Virus record (IMG/VR): IMGVR_UViG_3300047548_001207
Location: 1-25,009 of that record
DNA: 25,009 nt
Source: a virus
Strand: one strand, 5' to 3'
A program made the translations under genes and the position numbers. This document shows positions 6,931 to 25,009 of this stretch, piece after piece. Position 1 is the stretch's first letter; each line of letters starts with the position of its first letter. The notes under the pieces were generated by a model, which did not search any database, was not told where the DNA came from, and was given only the letters and a program-made list of their open reading frames with translations.

Positions 6931-7409
6931 AAACTCCCAAACGCCGCCGTAAAATATTTATTAACGGTGAACTACATCATATAATTCACATAAATATTCC
7001 TGCAGACGTTGCTACTACATGGAACTATATTCAAGATAAACTAGTTAGATATCCATATAAAACCATGAAAAAACACGCAAAAAAAGCGTATCTCATTAAT
7101 GAAGTAGCGCAGATGGTTAGCCGCCATCCTGAAAGAATAAGGATTGCAATAACTGCTGGAAATATTAAACGGCCACAACAATCTGGACCAAATGGAAAAT
7201 TTTATTTTAATGAAGATGATGTTTTAGATATTCAAGATTACTTTGCTAACGTTCATTATGGCCGTCCAAGAAAAGATGGATCAATTACTCCTTTGCATAG
7301 AACTGTGACAAAAGAGGAGGTCGATGCTAGGCTTGGACGGAGGGATGTTCTATACGTCCAAACAGAAAGTGGAGAATATATCCCTGTGTGGAGGACGGTA
7401 GATTTTTAA
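6876..7409 (+). CDS. Putative HTH DNA-binding protein (MerR/excisionase-like)
   Basis: The start is set at ATG 6876, giving 177 residues, because a GGAGG site lies 9 nt upstream. Residues 1-70 are very basic (KTPKRRRKIFI, MKKHAKKA). Residues ~71-123 (AYLINEVAQMVSRHPERIRI, followed by NIKRP and a FYFNEDDVLDIQDYF helix) resemble the winged helix of MerR/excisionase proteins. There, the E-V-A-x-x-V segment is the first HTH helix and N-I-K-R-P starts the wing. The C-terminus (~130-177) contains another basic segment and a short beta hairpin. It could be a phage transcription regulator or an origin-binding protein near the helicase. The family assignment is tentative. Confidence 0.55.
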   Translation: MDNEEREPVSDGKRYGVLKTPKRRRKIFINGELHHIIHINIPADVATTWNYIQDKLVRYPYKTMKKHAKKAYLINEVAQMVSRHPERIRIAITAGNIKRPQQSGPNGKFYFNEDDVLDIQDYFANVHYGRPRKDGSITPLHRTVTKEEVDARLGRRDVLYVQTESGEYIPVWRTVDF

Positions 7410-9432: not shown

Positions 9433-9735
9433 ATGTCGTTTGTGGGACACAAAAGAATAAAAGAATTTCATATAGATGGCCTCATAGAGGACGACTCTGC
9501 TATTCCTAGTGTCCGACAAAGATATGAAACTATTCTTGTAGACATGATGAGATCAAACGGTTATGTCCCCCACCTTGACGTAGAGCCAGCCTTTAGCCTA
9601 GAATATAAGGAAAATAAGTATACCTTTTTGTTAACAGTTTATGGAGTATATGTTGGAAGGGCAAAGGCACAATGCTACCTAGCAGTAAGCGGAAACAATC
9701 TCATACCGATGAATACTACACATCGGGACAAATAG
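9433..9735 (+). CDS. Hypothetical protein between helicase and primase
   Basis: This 100-residue protein begins MSFVGHKRIKEFHIDGL. It has a predicted alpha/beta mix with a final beta hairpin (KYTFLLTVYGVYVG). No catalytic motif is visible. The gene follows a TATAAT box with no room for a leader, and its 3' end overlaps the primase gene by 64 nt. Its position suggests a helper in primosome function, but I can name no family with confidence. Confidence 0.55.
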   Translation: MSFVGHKRIKEFHIDGLIEDDSAIPSVRQRYETILVDMMRSNGYVPHLDVEPAFSLEYKENKYTFLLTVYGVYVGRAKAQCYLAVSGNNLIPMNTTHRDK

Positions 9736-20358: not shown

Positions 20359-20866
20359 TGTAGTTCTCGCGGAGCGGTGGGAAAAAATTAATAAGGTGGT
20401 TGATGTGTTCCTAAAAGGAACCACTAACCCTACCGCCATTGCTAAGGCTACTGGATTTAAGCGTGCGGAAGTACAAGAATATCTTGATGAATGGCGCTCT
20501 GTTATACAGAGCGATAGACAGATCCAGATGAGAGCAAGAGAAGCCCTGTCTGGCGCTGACCGCCATTACTCCATGCTGATTGAGGAGGGGTGGGATGTTA
20601 TTAATCAGGCTGGCACAGTTGGAGATTTGGGCAAAAAGACTGCTGGCATCAAGATCGTGGCGGATATCCAGCAAAAACAAATAGATATGTTACAAAAGGC
20701 TGGCCTTATTGAGGACAGCGAAATTGCTCAACAAATTATTGATACAGAGCGCAAGCAAGAGATCTTGGTTAAGATTCTTAAAGAAGTCGTGGCGGACTGC
20801 GATCATTGTAAGCGGGAAGTATTTAGAAGGCTAGAGGAAGTCACAGGTAAGGCAGAGGGCTTCTGA
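20348..20866 (+). CDS. terS: Terminase small subunit (putative)
   Basis: The 172-residue protein has an N-terminal helix-turn-helix (~25-50, TNPTAIAKATGFKRAEVQEYL), central long helices for oligomerisation, and an acidic/Cys-containing C-terminus (DCDHCKREVFRRLEEV). This is the usual plan of small terminase subunits, which recognise the packaging site and load the large subunit. Its TGATG-type junction with the large terminase gene is strong contextual support. Sequence identity of small subunits is low in general, so the call depends on context. Confidence 0.65.
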   Translation: MSTDVVLAERWEKINKVVDVFLKGTTNPTAIAKATGFKRAEVQEYLDEWRSVIQSDRQIQMRAREALSGADRHYSMLIEEGWDVINQAGTVGDLGKKTAGIKIVADIQQKQIDMLQKAGLIEDSEIAQQIIDTERKQEILVKILKEVVADCDHCKREVFRRLEEVTGKAEGF

Positions 20867-22644
20867 TGTTTGATGACTTTATATCGGCTCTAGAGGAAGA
20901 CGAGTTTGAGGAACATCCTGTAAATATTGAAGAATTTGTTACAAATGAAGATTATCTACATCTTCCCCCACTATCAGACTTTCAGTATCAAGCAATTAAA
21001 GCAATGACTCAGGTGTACAAAAAAGAGACCTTGATTAAATTGTATGGAGAAGAAGAGGGTATAAAAAGAAGTCGTCAGACTTGCAACGAAGTAATTCTTC
21101 AATTAGGAAAGGGAAGCGGCAAAGATTATATCTCTACTATCTCTGTCACCTACCTTGTTTATTTATTACTGTGCCTTAAAGATCCAGCCAAATATTTTGG
21201 CAAGCCCCCAGGTGACTCCATCGACATTATTAATATCGCCATCAACTCTGAGCAGGCAAGGAACGTATTCTTCAAGGGGTTTCGTAAAAGAATTGAAGAC
21301 TCTCCATGGTTTGTTGGAAAATACAATATTACCGCCCAGAGTGTGTCGTTTGATAAATCTATTACATGTCACTCAGGTCACTCAGAGCGCGAGTCCTGGG
21401 AGGGATACAATGTTATCTGCGTGATTCTAGATGAGATCTCTGGCTTCAGCACAGTATCAACAAGTGGTAATGAGCAGGCAAAAACTGGTCAGGCGATCTA
21501 TGATATGTATAGGGCCTCCGTAGATTCACGATTTCCAGACGTTGGCAAGGTTGTACTTCTTTCATTCCCACGGTACCGCGACGACTTTATTCAGCAACGT
21601 TACAATGCAGTTATTGCCGATAAAGAAGTAATCATTAGATCTCATACATTCAAATTAGATGAAGAACTTGAGGGGGTCAAGGAGAATGAATTCACTATTG
21701 AATGGGAAGAAGATCAAATCAACGCCTACAAGTATCCTAAAGTTTTTGCGCTCAAAAGGCCCACATGGGAAGTAAACCCCACAAGGTCAATAAATGATTT
21801 TAAAATTGCTTTTTATAATAATCCAGTAGATGCTCTTGGTAGATTTGCCTGTATGCCTCCAGATGCTGTCGATGCATTCTTTAAGTCTAAGGAAAAGATC
21901 CTTGCCTGCTTTAATCAACCCATGAATGGCGTTGATGACGACGGTAGGTTTAAAGATTGGTTCGTCCCACAGGATGAAAAAGAATACTACATCCATGTTG
22001 ACCTTGCTCAAAAACATGATCATTGTGCGGTTGCGATGGCTCATGTTGATAGATGGGTACATCTTAAAAGTTTTATGAATCATAATGTTGTTAGCCCCAT
22101 TGTTGTTGTAGATTGTGTAAGATGGTGGACACCAACCTCAGATAAGTCTGTTGATTTTTCTGAAGTAAAGCAATTTATTATTGATCTAAGATCTCGCGGC
22201 TTTAATATCAAGAAGGTTACATTCGACCGCTGGAACTCTCACGATATTATGACAGAACTTAAAATGATCGGAATAGAGACAGAGACTCTATCTGTTGCTA
22301 AAAAACATTATGATGATATGGCTATGTTAGTAGGAGAAGAAAGAATTATTGGGCCAAGCATTAAACTACTTACCGACGAACTTTTGCAACTAAGAATCAT
22401 TCGTGATAAAGTAGACCACCCAAGAAAGGGAAGCAAGGATCTTTCGGATGCTGTATGTGGATCTATTTATAACTCTATTTCTAACACAAGAAAAGAGTCT
22501 CAAGAAGTTGAGATAGAAGTTCATACATATAAACAATTTATTAGAGATCAGCGCGAGGAAGAGGCTAAAAGAAATGTTATTCAGCCACCCACGGGTGGTC
22601 AGAATAATATAGATGACTATATTCAATCTATAGGGATGGTCTAA
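20866..22644 (+). CDS. terL: Terminase large subunit
   Basis: The product has 592 residues. The ATPase domain has LQLGKGSGKDY (79-88) as Walker A, with Asp in place of the usual final Ser/Thr, and VICVILDEISGF (183-194) as Walker B with the catalytic E190. The C-terminal RNase-H-like nuclease has three acidic motifs: YYIHVDLAQKHDHCAVAM (~367-384), KKVTFDRWNSHDI (~445) and KDLSDAVCGSIY (~526). It cuts concatemeric DNA and pumps it into the prohead. The gene directly follows the small subunit candidate, and the start overlaps its stop. Confidence 0.93.
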   Translation: MFDDFISALEEDEFEEHPVNIEEFVTNEDYLHLPPLSDFQYQAIKAMTQVYKKETLIKLYGEEEGIKRSRQTCNEVILQLGKGSGKDYISTISVTYLVYLLLCLKDPAKYFGKPPGDSIDIINIAINSEQARNVFFKGFRKRIEDSPWFVGKYNITAQSVSFDKSITCHSGHSERESWEGYNVICVILDEISGFSTVSTSGNEQAKTGQAIYDMYRASVDSRFPDVGKVVLLSFPRYRDDFIQQRYNAVIADKEVIIRSHTFKLDEELEGVKENEFTIEWEEDQINAYKYPKVFALKRPTWEVNPTRSINDFKIAFYNNPVDALGRFACMPPDAVDAFFKSKEKILACFNQPMNGVDDDGRFKDWFVPQDEKEYYIHVDLAQKHDHCAVAMAHVDRWVHLKSFMNHNVVSPIVVVDCVRWWTPTSDKSVDFSEVKQFIIDLRSRGFNIKKVTFDRWNSHDIMTELKMIGIETETLSVAKKHYDDMAMLVGEERIIGPSIKLLTDELLQLRIIRDKVDHPRKGSKDLSDAVCGSIYNSISNTRKESQEVEIEVHTYKQFIRDQREEEAKRNVIQPPTGGQNNIDDYIQSIGMV

Positions 22645-22645
22645 C

Positions 22646-23026
22646 ATGGATATGAATGAAGAACTTATAGAGATAATGCTTGAACGCGGCTACATTGAGG
22701 TGGTAGGATATAATACTGTTGGAGATCCAGTATATAAGGTTACTGAATTGTTCTATGAAGAGCAGCAAGAACTTGTAGAATGGATGCGGCAGATGGATTC
22801 AGACATATTGAATTCTTTATGGTTTAAAGGATTCATTGATTTAAAGATGGATGAAGATGGAAATGCCTACATCTATCTTACTGATAAATCAGAGGGATGG
22901 GTCCAATCAGAAGAACTTACTGAAGATGAAAAGTCAATGATGTATCTTATCTATAGCACAGGAGCATATAATGGAGGGACATGGAATGGCGGCTTCCCAG
23001 ACCCAGGATACAAGGAACGTAATTGA
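22646..23026 (+). CDS. Hypothetical acidic protein
   Basis: The 126-residue protein starts 1 nt after the terminase stop. It is acidic. Residues 1-40 (LIEIMLERGYIEVVGYNTVGDPVYKVTELF) resemble a winged helix or small alpha/beta domain. Residues ~70-105 hold a second helical segment, and the C-terminus is Gly-rich (YNGGTWNGGFPDPGYKERN). A packaging or head-assembly helper is possible from position. No family is recognised. Confidence 0.5.
   Translation: MDMNEELIEIMLERGYIEVVGYNTVGDPVYKVTELFYEEQQELVEWMRQMDSDILNSLWFKGFIDLKMDEDGNAYIYLTDKSEGWVQSEELTEDEKSMMYLIYSTGAYNGGTWNGGFPDPGYKERN
22974..22978 (+). promoter_or_regulatory. Ribosome-binding site GGAGG deciding the start at 22986
   Basis: GGAGG ends 7 nt before ATG 22986. 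The alternative in-frame ATG at 22971 contains the site itself and has no site of its own. Confidence 0.6.
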
Positions 23027-23531
23027 TTACTACAAGGAGTGGGAGAATGATCAGATCAAAGCGGATCTTGATACCAAACGCCTCCCATTTATTGTAGGAT
23101 TTGAAAATGTATCTGGAGACTTTAATAAAGCATCTGGTATTAGGAATAGCAATGCATTTCTTGCCAAAGAATCTTGGATTATTGGTAATAAGAAATGGGA
23201 TCGCCGTGGAGCGGTTGGCACACAAAATTATATTCATTTAAAGTATGCTTCATCATTAGACCATATCTATCTTAATGAGCCACATATTAGAGATATGCGT
23301 TGGGTCGCGGTGGATAATGTTCCTGGCGCTATTCCAATTACTAAATATGAGTGGAATCCAAACACTTTTATGATATTTGGCGAAGAGGCCAGAGGTATTA
23401 GCCCAATGGGTCTTGGCATGGCAGATGATGTTGTTATGATTCCTCAACTTGGTAGTGTTAGAAGCCTTAATGTTAGCGTTGCAAGCGGCATCATTATGTA
23501 CGATTATGCTACCAAACTTGGAATGCTATAA
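22986..23531 (+). CDS. SpoU/TrmH-family RNA 2'-O-methyltransferase (paralogue 1)
   Basis: The product has 181 residues from ATG 22986, chosen for the GGAGG 7 nt upstream. All three SPOUT/TrmH motifs are present: motif 1 DFNKASGIRNSNAF (45-58, with N47 and R53), motif 2 MIFGEEARGIS (129-139) and motif 3 IPQLGSVRSLNVSVASGI (152-169). The last two build the trefoil knot that binds S-adenosylmethionine. The family 2'-O-methylates ribose in tRNA or rRNA. WDRRGAVGTQNYIH (71-84) resembles a segment of actinobacterial TrmH-like proteins. The gene overlaps the preceding one by 41 nt. A second, related gene begins at 24737 beyond a tRNA cluster, so tRNA is the likely substrate (inference). Confidence 0.88.
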   Translation: MAASQTQDTRNVIDYYKEWENDQIKADLDTKRLPFIVGFENVSGDFNKASGIRNSNAFLAKESWIIGNKKWDRRGAVGTQNYIHLKYASSLDHIYLNEPHIRDMRWVAVDNVPGAIPITKYEWNPNTFMIFGEEARGISPMGLGMADDVVMIPQLGSVRSLNVSVASGIIMYDYATKLGML

Positions 23532-23535
23532 TATT

Positions 23536-23667
23536 ATGGAATGCATATTTTGTGGGCAGCCAGCAGAGTGGATTGGTGAAAGAAATGAGACCAAATCATA
23601 TGTCTGCCAGACACATTTTCATGCATATTACATAAGTTTTTGGATATGGGAGAAATATAATGGCTGA
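23536..23667 (+). CDS. Mini zinc-finger protein
   Basis: This 43-residue product starts at ATG 23536, shortly after a TATAAT at 23527-23532 inside the end of the methyltransferase gene. MECIFCGQPAEW and VCQTHFHAYY give CxxC and CxxH pairs about 22 residues apart, the minimum for one zinc site. An aromatic C-terminus follows. The stop overlaps the next start. The role is unknown, and a longer in-frame upstream start (23449) would lie wholly inside the methyltransferase gene. Confidence 0.6.
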   Translation: MECIFCGQPAEWIGERNETKSYVCQTHFHAYYISFWIWEKYNG

Positions 23668-24034
23668 ATCATACATTCCGACAGATTCTATGGCATCTAA
23701 TGCCCGTCGCGGTCTTGCTCTGCGAGATGAATTTAATCGTGGGGGTACATCTGTGGGCATTGCACGCGCAAGAGATATCGCAAATAAAAAGAATCTTAGT
23801 GAGTCTACTGTATTGAGGATGCATTCATTCTTTAGCCGTCACGCTGTTGATAAAAAGGGTAAGGGCTGGAGCCAGGGTGAAGAAGGATATCCATCTAATG
23901 GTCTTATCGCATGGCTTTTATGGGGCGGTGACTCAGGAAAATCCTGGGCAGAATCAAAAAGAAATGCTATCATGAGAAGAAGAGAGCAGAGCAATAAGGT
24001 TTGGAAGTCCTCTGCATTTGATATAACAAAATAA
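23660..24034 (+). CDS. Conserved phage protein (ARARD...KGKGW...WLLWGGD family)
   Basis: The 124-residue product contains MASNARRGLALRDEF, GGTSVGIARARDIANKK, LSESTVLRMHSFFSRHAVDKKGKGW and NGLIAWLLWGGDSGKSWAE in that order. I know this arrangement as a small conserved domain that recurs in phages, alone or fused to head or prohead proteins. Its biochemical role is not established to my knowledge. Position after the terminase genes supports a packaging or head link. The start overlaps the zinc-finger gene by 8 nt. The tRNA cluster begins just after its stop. Confidence 0.65.
   Translation: MAESYIPTDSMASNARRGLALRDEFNRGGTSVGIARARDIANKKNLSESTVLRMHSFFSRHAVDKKGKGWSQGEEGYPSNGLIAWLLWGGDSGKSWAESKRNAIMRRREQSNKVWKSSAFDITK
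24001..24027 (+). promoter_or_regulatory. Weak candidate promoter for the tRNA cluster
   Basis: TTGGAA (24001-24006) and TATAAC (24022-24027) are 15 nt apart at the very end of the preceding gene, just before the RNA genes. The spacing is short, so the cluster may equally be processed from a longer transcript. Confidence 0.28.
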
Positions 24035-24041
24035 ATAGACC

Positions 24042-24140
24042 CCGATGTGCCAGCATTGCCGAGTTACGCGGTTGATCCCAGCATGAAGTTAGTCAAACGT
24101 GCAGAACTTAGGATGGTTTGGTTACCCGCTGGCACATCGG
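24042..24140 (+). ncRNA. Cloverleaf-like structured RNA of unknown type
   Basis: Positions 42-54 and 128-140 of this 24.0-24.1 kb stretch pair perfectly for 13 bp (CCGATGTGCCAGC with GCTGGCACATCGG). The inner 7 bp (24048-24054 with 24128-24134) have tRNA acceptor proportions: two linker bases, a D-arm-like hairpin (GCCG/CGGT, 24058-24072), an anticodon-arm-like stem GCATG/CGTGC (24081-24102) with a 12-nt loop instead of 7, an 8-nt variable segment, and a T-arm-like stem GGATG/TACCC with one A-C mismatch. The T loop is GTTTGGT, not TTCGANN. It could be a decayed tRNA, a tRNA mimic, or an unrelated RNA. A TCTTTT follows directly. Confidence 0.45.
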
Positions 24141-24145
24141 TCTTT

Positions 24146-24217
24146 TCCCGATTGGTGTAATCGACAGCACGCAACACTTTGGATGTTGAGGACGAGGTTT
24201 GAATCCTTGATTGGGAG
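24146..24217 (+). tRNA. tRNA-Gln (TTG)
   Basis: A canonical 72-nt cloverleaf. The acceptor is TCCCGAT/ATTGGGA (one G-T pair), with a D arm GTGT/GCAC, anticodon stem CAACA/TGTTG with loop CTTTGGA (anticodon TTG), variable AGGAC less its last base shared with the T stem, and T arm CGAGG-TTTGAAT-CCTTG. The discriminator is G. CCA is not encoded. It reads CAA codons. Confidence 0.9.
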
Positions 24218-24220
24218 CGA

Positions 24221-24300
24221 GCCAGATATTCCCCAAGGTGGGGAAGCGGTCTGTAAAACCGTCGCCTCAGGCATGGTTGGTTCGATTCCAACATCTGGCA
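24221..24300 (+). tRNA. tRNA-Tyr (GTA)
   Basis: An 80-nt cloverleaf starting 3 nt after tRNA-Gln. The acceptor is GCCAGAT/ATCTGGC, the D stem TCCC/GGGA, and the anticodon stem GCGGT/ACCGT with loop CTGTAAA (anticodon GTA). A longer variable region (CGCCTCAGGCATG) is as expected for bacterial class II tRNA-Tyr. The T arm is GTTGG-TTCGATT-CCAAC and the discriminator is A. Confidence 0.92.
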
Positions 24301-24306
24301 CATACC

Positions 24307-24340
24307 ATACTACTTAGTAGTATTGATAGATAGGTCTATC
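24307..24340 (+). other. Two adjacent small hairpins between tRNA genes
   Basis: ATACTAC (24307-24313) pairs with GTAGTAT (24317-24323) around TTA. GATAGA (24325-24330) pairs with TCTATC (24335-24340) around TAGG. They fill the spacer after tRNA-Tyr and may guide RNA processing or stabilise the transcript. They are too AT-rich and lack the T-tract of an intrinsic terminator. Confidence 0.4.
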
Positions 24341-24349
24341 ACGCAGAAA

Positions 24350-24425
24350 GTCAGATATGCGGGACTGCCTTCCACAAGTGCGGCAAAGTAGGGGCTAGCA
24401 CCAAAATGCTAAATGTGGTCTGACA
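24350..24425 (+). ncRNA. tRNA-sized element with acceptor-like stem but no normal T loop
   Basis: GTCAGAT (24350-24356) pairs with GTCTGAC (24418-24424), one T-G pair, and with a discriminator-like A the element is 76 nt, exactly tRNA length. It ends 3 nt before tRNA-Met, the same spacing as between Gln and Tyr. Inside are TGCC/GGCA with a 12-nt loop (24366-24385) and TAGCA/TGCTA around CCAAAA (24396-24411). There is no GTTCGA-type T arm and no 7-nt anticodon loop. It is either a strongly decayed tRNA or another tRNA-like RNA. Confidence 0.4.
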
Positions 24426-24428
24426 CAA

Positions 24429-24494
24429 TGCTCTGGTAGGTACGGAGGGGGCCTCATAAGCCCCTAGCCCGTGGTTCGATTCCACGCAGAGCAA
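24429..24494 (+). tRNA. tRNA-Met (CAT) with a truncated D-arm region
   Basis: The acceptor TGCTCTG/CAGAGCA, anticodon arm GGGGC-CTCATAA-GCCCC (anticodon CAT), 5-nt variable TAGCC and T arm CGTGG-TTCGATT-CCACG are all perfect. However, only 12 nt (GTAGGTACGGAG) separate the acceptor from the anticodon stem, against about 19-22 normally, and no D stem can form. The total is 66 nt. It could be elongator Met, initiator-like, or a lysidine-modified Ile tRNA. D-armless tRNAs are known from mitochondria and are unusual in phages. Confidence 0.75.
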
Positions 24495-24497
24495 CAA

Positions 24498-24516
24498 TGT
24501 AGTCTGATCAACTACA
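24498..24516 (+). other. Hairpin with a 7-nt loop resembling an anticodon arm
   Basis: TGTAGT (24498-24503) pairs with ACTACA (24511-24516) around the 7-nt loop CTGATCA. It lies alone in the spacer between two RNA genes. The loop has the C-T at positions 1-2 that anticodon loops show, but no acceptor or T arm belongs to it, so it may be chance or a processing signal. Confidence 0.3.
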
Positions 24517-24518
24517 GA

Positions 24519-24624
24519 GATATACATGGTGTAATGTGGCAGCACGCCACCTATGAAAATCGTTATCGACGGATAAAAAGATTCATGGGAGGGGAAGTGC
24601 GGGTTCGACCCCCGTTGTATATCG
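24519..24624 (+). tRNA. tRNA-like gene with a greatly extended anticodon arm (isotype undetermined)
   Basis: The acceptor helix is 8 bp (GATATACA at 24519-24526 with TGTATATC at 24616-24623). An extra 5' G opposite C recalls the G-1:C73 of tRNA-His. The D arm (GTGT/GCAC, 24529-24545) has the same stem as tRNA-Gln, and the T arm GCGGG-TTCGACC-CCCGT (24599-24615) is canonical. In place of the 17-nt anticodon arm is a 46-nt hairpin (24547-24592): an 11-bp helix with one A-A mismatch, then a nested TTATC/GATAA hairpin with loop GACG. No 7-nt loop with U33 is present, so no anticodon can be assigned. It could hold an intron-like insert or be a non-decoding tRNA mimic. Confidence 0.6.
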
Positions 24625-24627
24625 CAT

Positions 24628-24699
24628 TGGCGTGTGGCGCAATGGCAGCGCAATCGGCTGTTAACCGATGGGTTATAGGTTCGAATCCTATCACGCCAG
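24628..24699 (+). tRNA. tRNA-Asn (GTT)
   Basis: A canonical 72-nt cloverleaf. The acceptor is TGGCGTG/CACGCCA, the D arm GCGC-AATGGCA-GCGC, the anticodon arm ATCGG-CTGTTAA-CCGAT (anticodon GTT), the variable region GGGTT, and the T arm ATAGG-TTCGAAT-CCTAT. The discriminator is G and CCA is not encoded. It starts 3 nt after the extended-arm tRNA-like gene. Confidence 0.93.
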
Positions 24700-24702
24700 C
24701 CA

Positions 24703-24733
24703 AACGGTAGCGTAAAAACACGACGAACGGTAG
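24703..24733 (+). repeat. Short direct repeat AACGGTAG before the second methyltransferase gene
   Basis: AACGGTAG occurs at 24703-24710 and 24726-24733 in the 37-nt spacer between tRNA-Asn and ATG 24737. The second copy runs into the weak ribosome-binding stretch GTAGGGT. It may be an operator, or chance in so short a sequence. Confidence 0.3.
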
Positions 24734-24736
24734 GGT

Positions 24737-25009
24737 ATGGATACTAGAAACGTAACCGACTTCTATAAGTATTGGGAAAACGAGGCAATCATTGCCGATC
24801 TTGATTCAAAGAGAAATGAATTTGTTGTTGCAGTAGAAAGAGTTAATGGAGACTTTAATTTTTCTACTGTAATTAGAAACTGTAATGCATTTCTTGCTCG
24901 TAAGGTTTATCGTTCTGGCATTCGTCAGTATGACAAGCGAGGTACTGTAGGAACGCATCATTACGAGCATGTTGACTATATTGAGAATATATCTTCTATT
25001 ATTGAGAAG
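24737..25009 (+). CDS. SpoU/TrmH-family RNA methyltransferase (paralogue 2, 3' partial)
   Basis: The gene starts at ATG 24737 and runs off the window after 91 codons. It aligns without gaps to paralogue 1 (22986-23531), with about half the residues identical: both share DTRNVxDxYKxWEN, ADLDxKR, GDFN, IRNxNAFLA and RGxVGTxxYxH. The motif 1 region GDFNFSTVIRNCNAFLA is intact, but the SAM-binding motifs 2 and 3 lie beyond the window, so activity cannot be judged. The upstream site is weak (GTAGGGT). The divergence suggests that the two copies act on different RNA targets or form a pair. Confidence 0.8.
   Translation, partial: MDTRNVTDFYKYWENEAIIADLDSKRNEFVVAVERVNGDFNFSTVIRNCNAFLARKVYRSGIRQYDKRGTVGTHHYEHVDYIENISSIIEK

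Follow-up and report, generated by a model that had tools for sequence, protein, structure and literature searches.

In this study the full virus record IMGVR_UViG_3300047548_001207 from IMG/VR (25,009 bp, hereafter the window) was analysed, focusing on its cluster of RNA genes and on the two genes of the SpoU/TrmH RNA methyltransferase family, T1 and T2, that flank it. On balance, we lean towards reading this locus as a phage tRNA island situated shortly after the large terminase gene (TerL), accompanied by a resident tRNA 2′-O-methyltransferase of the TrmH type (T1) and with T2 gained by recombination. The newest item at the locus is RNA1, a previously undescribed structured RNA that the original prediction, made from the sequence without database searches, did not single out.

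T1 is encoded on the plus strand at 22971–23531; its frame is open from 22971, an in-frame ATG at 22986 offers an alternative start, and the conserved part of the protein begins at residue 13–14. The complete gene of the SPOUT family that had been predicted here was confirmed by Pfam, in which PF00588 (SpoU_methylase) covers residues 40–177 with an E-value of 1.5e-19 and 70.9 bits, above the cut-off of 29.7 bits. Among the NCBIfam models TrmH (Gm18) ranks first at 57.1 bits, ahead of RlmB and TrmL. The TrmH structures 7edc, 1zjr and 1v2x are the top matches in a PDB sequence search and also the best structural matches of the predicted T1 model (mean predicted local distance difference test score 81.5), and all three are Gm18 enzymes. 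T1 resembles them in its SPOUT fold, in its catalytic residues and in its size, with 186 aa compared with 194 aa for TrmH from T. thermophilus. The catalytic residues of the latter, which we take to be N35, R41, E124, S150 and N152, have counterparts in N52, R58, E139, S165 and N167 of T1 by alignment and motif spacing, and the conserved N, R, E, S and N residues of motifs 1–3 are thus all present in T1. Across 23 aligned homologues, counting only the rows that reach a given residue, no variation is seen at N52 and R58, and little or none at E139, S165 and N167. T1 is under strong purifying selection, with nonsynonymous divergence (dN) of 0.03–0.22 compared with synonymous divergence (dS) of 0.9–3.2, and looks catalytically intact. 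Judging from the sequence and the model, T1 most likely 2′-O-methylates tRNA, with G18 as the favoured nucleotide. Homologues with 36–50% identity occur in bacterial assembly contigs, those of Thermoleophilia, Acidimicrobiia, Saccharibacteria and Weissella among them, and the phage TrmH gene may therefore originate from bacteria.

TrmL, which methylates the wobble nucleotide (Nm34), has a minimal SPOUT domain, as has T1, in which motif 3 contains RSLN. T1 and T2 could accordingly be imagined to act at the wobble nucleotide and to shield the phage tRNAs from anticodon nucleases. For T1, however, TrmL scores lower than TrmH (36 versus 57 bits) and stands further down in the fold ranking, its score of 36.2 bits misses the TrmL equivalog cut-off of 190.6 bits, and we regard this explanation as highly improbable. 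Phage tRNAs are known to come under pressure from anticodon nucleases of the host, and protection from these nucleases is a known theme (PMC10264068). The protection proposed in the original prediction nevertheless found no support at this locus, the enzymes closest to T1 being those that modify G18 in the D-loop, away from the anticodon loop.

The order TerL–ORF126–TrmH–ORF124–RNA1–tRNAs, in which ORF denotes open reading frame, is a slot shared by both types of the enzyme: it is occupied by a T1-type gene at loci L002, L010, L021, L028 and L104 of related records, and by a T2-type gene at L050, L051, L053, L055, L099–L102 and L105. In the window, on the plus strand throughout, the slot is anchored by TerL (20866–22644; PHROG terminase large subunit), which is followed by ORF126 (22646–23026), a gene of unassigned function conserved between TerL and TrmH, and, beyond T1, by ORF124 (23660–24034; phrog_2859, function unassigned), which comes after TrmH in both synteny types and is its strictest neighbour, stricter than tRNA. 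In a second clade (L034–L047) TrmH has the island on its opposite flank, with the island placed between a TerL-like gene and TrmH in L034 and L040. The nearest tRNA gene is 0.3–1.1 kb from TrmH in 21 of the 24 records searched, and the link of a single enzyme to tRNA islands is real but lineage-bound. The window phage is kin to viruses of actinobacteria; its TerL is 60–64% identical to terminases of the Stanwilliamsviridae, its closest isolates by TerL. As in the window, the tRNA island of Streptomyces phage Gilson, a member of this family, directly follows TerL (64% identical), whereas TrmH is neither annotated in Gilson nor found by protein search, and RNA1 was not found there even with the search filters off. 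Since Stanwilliamsviridae such as Gilson have the tRNA island after TerL and no TrmH, the island site looks older than the TrmH gene.

Several observations weigh against a role in tRNA modification, and in particular against G18 as the target. Unlike the known TrmH enzymes, T1 is phage-borne, shares only ∼24% identity with them and misses the equivalog cut-off of NCBIfam TrmH (Gm18) by a wide margin (57.1 of 227 bits), so that its modified nucleotide may differ from G18. The three records without a tRNA gene close to TrmH comprise one with a distance of 3.9 kb, one with a distance of 86 kb (G023) and one (G024) in which a tRNA gene was searched for and none detected. The tRNA-rich Rhodococcus phages Trina and NiceHouse (Trinavirus) carry a 34% identical homologue, a tRNA-methyltransferase, at 12–14 kb; unlike T1 it is located near an RNA ligase gene, and the tRNA genes begin only at ∼81 kb in Trina and ∼77 kb in NiceHouse, placing the nearest of them ∼68 and ∼64 kb away, respectively. 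With the gene far from tRNAs in the Rhodococcus phages and G023, and with none detected in G024, the adjacency of enzyme and tRNA may be operon history. Compared with random placement, closeness in any single record is only weakly unusual, with a fraction of 0.02–0.39 for the 21 close records, which are moreover related to one another. The original prediction had itself named relatives with the gene far from any tRNA as evidence that would count against it; such relatives do exist in the distant NiceHouse, Trina and G023, set against the short distances in most of the records searched.

An alternative has T1 and T2 acting on the rRNA of the host or on some other RNA, in the manner of RlmB, TsnR and AviRb, and thereby tuning host translation, with the adjacency to tRNA a remnant of operon history. 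The rRNA methylases have the same fold and follow TrmH closely in the rankings, the strictest neighbour of the enzyme is ORF124 rather than tRNA, and in distant relatives the gene is remote from the tRNAs. RlmB, TsnR and AviRb bear extra N-terminal RNA-binding domains, however, which T1 with its 186 residues lacks, and the tRNA Gm18 enzymes are the closest to T1 in both sequence and fold; this alternative appears improbable. In G023 (320 kb), the TrmH homologue at L059 contains an in-frame TAG and possibly belongs to a recoded phage.

RNA1 (24036–24142, plus strand) comprises ∼107 nt, with a closing helix of 13 continuous pairs, a variable middle and a conserved 3′ core, CTTAGGATGGTGTAGTTACC (in the window CTTAGGATGGTTTGGTTACC). 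The fold of the segment 24036–24146 is better than that of 200 out of 200 shuffled sequences (z = −3.6). The closing helix keeps all 13 of its pairs in each of 15 sequences, including the diverged copies at L050, L053 and L055, and five of these pairs change on both sides, one position occurring as G–C, C–G and A–U. When the closing helix, the inner helix and the small hairpin are taken together, 97.8% of the alignment cells are paired, compared with 31–41% when the structure is slid, and six pairs have changed on both sides, a value reached in none of 500 shuffles. This covariation of base pairs across homologues marks RNA1 as a genuine structured RNA. An exact 21-base motif of RNA1 was found in 31 viral contigs, and the RNA is kept even where ORF124 has diverged to 56–58% protein identity. 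A covariance model (R1) detected it in 11 of 27 whole records, in phages of both the T1 and the T2 type, once in each record and always upstream of the first tRNA of the island; it also gave weak echoes on the reverse strand, and the G–U pairs favour the plus strand as the RNA. The model found no RNA1 in the second clade, in L052 and L054 or in the Rhodococcus phages, and since TrmH and tRNAs persist in the second clade, TrmH is independent of RNA1.

Known identities for RNA1 were considered and rejected. Inspection by eye had suggested 5S rRNA, but no Rfam 5S match was obtained up to an E-value of 5 and the middle varies between copies and is almost missing from L053; an intrinsic terminator was rejected as the downstream T-run is not conserved. 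The core in L106 is a chance match, none of the island genes or RNAs having a homologue around it. RNA1 is probably a small non-coding RNA that is co-transcribed with the island and freed by tRNA processing. By description it resembles RNAs C and D of phage T4, small stable non-tRNA RNAs that are transcribed with the tRNA cluster of that phage. RNA1 has no match to any Rfam family, including GOLLD and ROOL, which are structured non-coding RNAs of unassigned function near phage tRNA islands (PMC12286853); it is also far shorter than many GOLLD RNAs, which exceed 800 nt. Given these precedents, RNA1 can be regarded as a small newcomer to an established theme. In Gilson (L187), the spacer between two tRNA-Pro genes at 9600–9685 is closed by GTAGAAGC/GCTTCTAC and, as seen by eye only, is possibly an island RNA.

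The RNA-gene cluster of the window spans 24036–24702, in agreement with the ∼660 bp originally predicted, and contains RNA1, three tRNAs, two tRNA-like genes and an unexplained element, X1, all on the plus strand. ARAGORN identified tRNA-Gln(TTG) at 24146–24218, tRNA-Tyr(GTA) at 24221–24301 and tRNA-Asn(GTT) at 24628–24702. In the tRNA-Gln the D-loop reads GA rather than GG, and the matching T-loop position carries U rather than C, which is consistent with an exchange of G19–C56 for A19–U56; the same change is present in L021, L028 and L038, and the other tRNAs examined keep C56. Beyond these three, Rfam recognized two odd tRNA-like genes: one with the anticodon CAT and no D-arm (24429–24494; 33.2 bits to the tRNA family, supported by alignment), and one in which a long hairpin replaces the anticodon arm and the acceptor, D and T arms are kept (24520–24623; 33.8 bits, supported by the fold). 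A possible D-armless tRNA-like gene with a TATAA loop was also noticed, by eye only, at 7357–7437 of L053, in a T2-type phage. X1 (24305–24428) recurs with 97% identity in two distant phages, at L038 (2324–2447) and L050 (4100–4224), always inside the tRNA island, and these carriers have TrmH proteins that are 80 and 50% identical to T1, respectively; the element is thus found in both T1-type and T2-type phages. Its fold is no better than that of shuffled sequences (z = −0.6), one small hairpin covaries between the copies, and assignment to a known RNA was rejected, with no match in Rfam, GOLLD and ROOL included. Both RNA1 and X1 are in keeping with the occurrence of non-coding RNAs in the tRNA islands of phages, which is a known theme.

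T2 starts with an ATG at 24737 on the plus strand and its frame is open to position 25009, where, as the window is the whole record, the gene is cut by the contig end and only its N-terminal half is present. T2 and T1 share 51% identity across 87 residues (E-value 2e-27), much as originally predicted. T2 alone has no Pfam match, probably owing to the presence of the N-terminal half only; it retains the N and R of motif 1 and ends before motifs 2 and 3, which form the S-adenosylmethionine-binding knot; both motifs are complete in L050 and L052, the closest relatives of T2. In the tree, T1-type and T2-type genes form separate phage clades (support 100/98 and 97/98), and T2 of the window groups with L050 and L052. 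This grouping with genes of other phages rules out a tandem duplication of T1 in the window lineage. T2 would be better termed a xenologue than a paralogue arisen in this lineage, and T1 and T2 belong to two old lineages of phage genes, either of which can take the place of the other at a single locus. In all 65 related virus records (24 of 24 in a first set and 41 of 41 in a second), which range from 4 to 320 kb and of which none is known to be complete, a single TrmH-type gene and no second one was found. The bracketing pair of paralogues, as first proposed, is therefore not supported: the enzyme pair was seen in the window contig only, and what recurs in related phages is the link of a single enzyme to tRNA. 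The broader proposal that the phage carries its own tRNAs together with enzymes to modify them survives in so far as TrmH-type genes of two lineages neighbour tRNA islands across the group and T1 looks intact.

T2 in the window thus seems to be either acquired or mis-assembled, and no local duplicate. Because it occupies the extreme end of the contig, immediately behind a tRNA-Asn gene that is up to 93–97% identical between phages, an assembly chimera, in which a phage of the T1 type was fused to one of the T2 type through their near-identical tRNA genes, is possible, if doubtful. Two copies are seen in no other record, tRNA-Tyr and X1 of the window match phages of the second clade or of the T2 type at 97–99%, and the exact patterns of the two odd tRNA-like genes are absent from all other viral contigs. 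Mosaic islands are normal in this group, however, with X1 shared across the two phage types and a tRNA content that varies between close relatives, and L052 and L054 likewise place T2 downstream of tRNA-Asn.

We therefore return to the reading of a resident enzyme and a recombined second gene. The T1-type enzyme would methylate a tRNA ribose, most likely that of G18 in the D-loop, and this methylation would stabilize the elbow of the phage-encoded tRNAs, and perhaps of host tRNAs too, during infection. T2 would have entered the window contig by recombination in the mosaic tRNA island and would supply another such enzyme, whose preferences among tRNAs perhaps differ. A more speculative extension, to which we give limited credence, is a conserved module of aquatic actinobacteriophage-like viruses, made up of a tRNA 2′-O-methylase, RNA1 and the tRNA island, in which the methylase marks the tRNAs of the phage while RNA1 acts for the island in processing, stability or as a decoy, with a second enzyme widening the set of tRNAs in some phages. 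A literature search, covering few subscription papers, found no description of the arrangement seen in the window island.

In conclusion, it has long been asked why phages carry tRNAs. The finding that an apparent dedicated tRNA methylase is kept beside the islands across this group, with two lineages of the enzyme in one slot, suggests that selection may act on the modification of phage tRNAs, which is testable. RNA1 adds a short and well-supported RNA family to the puzzle of the non-coding RNAs in phage tRNA islands.

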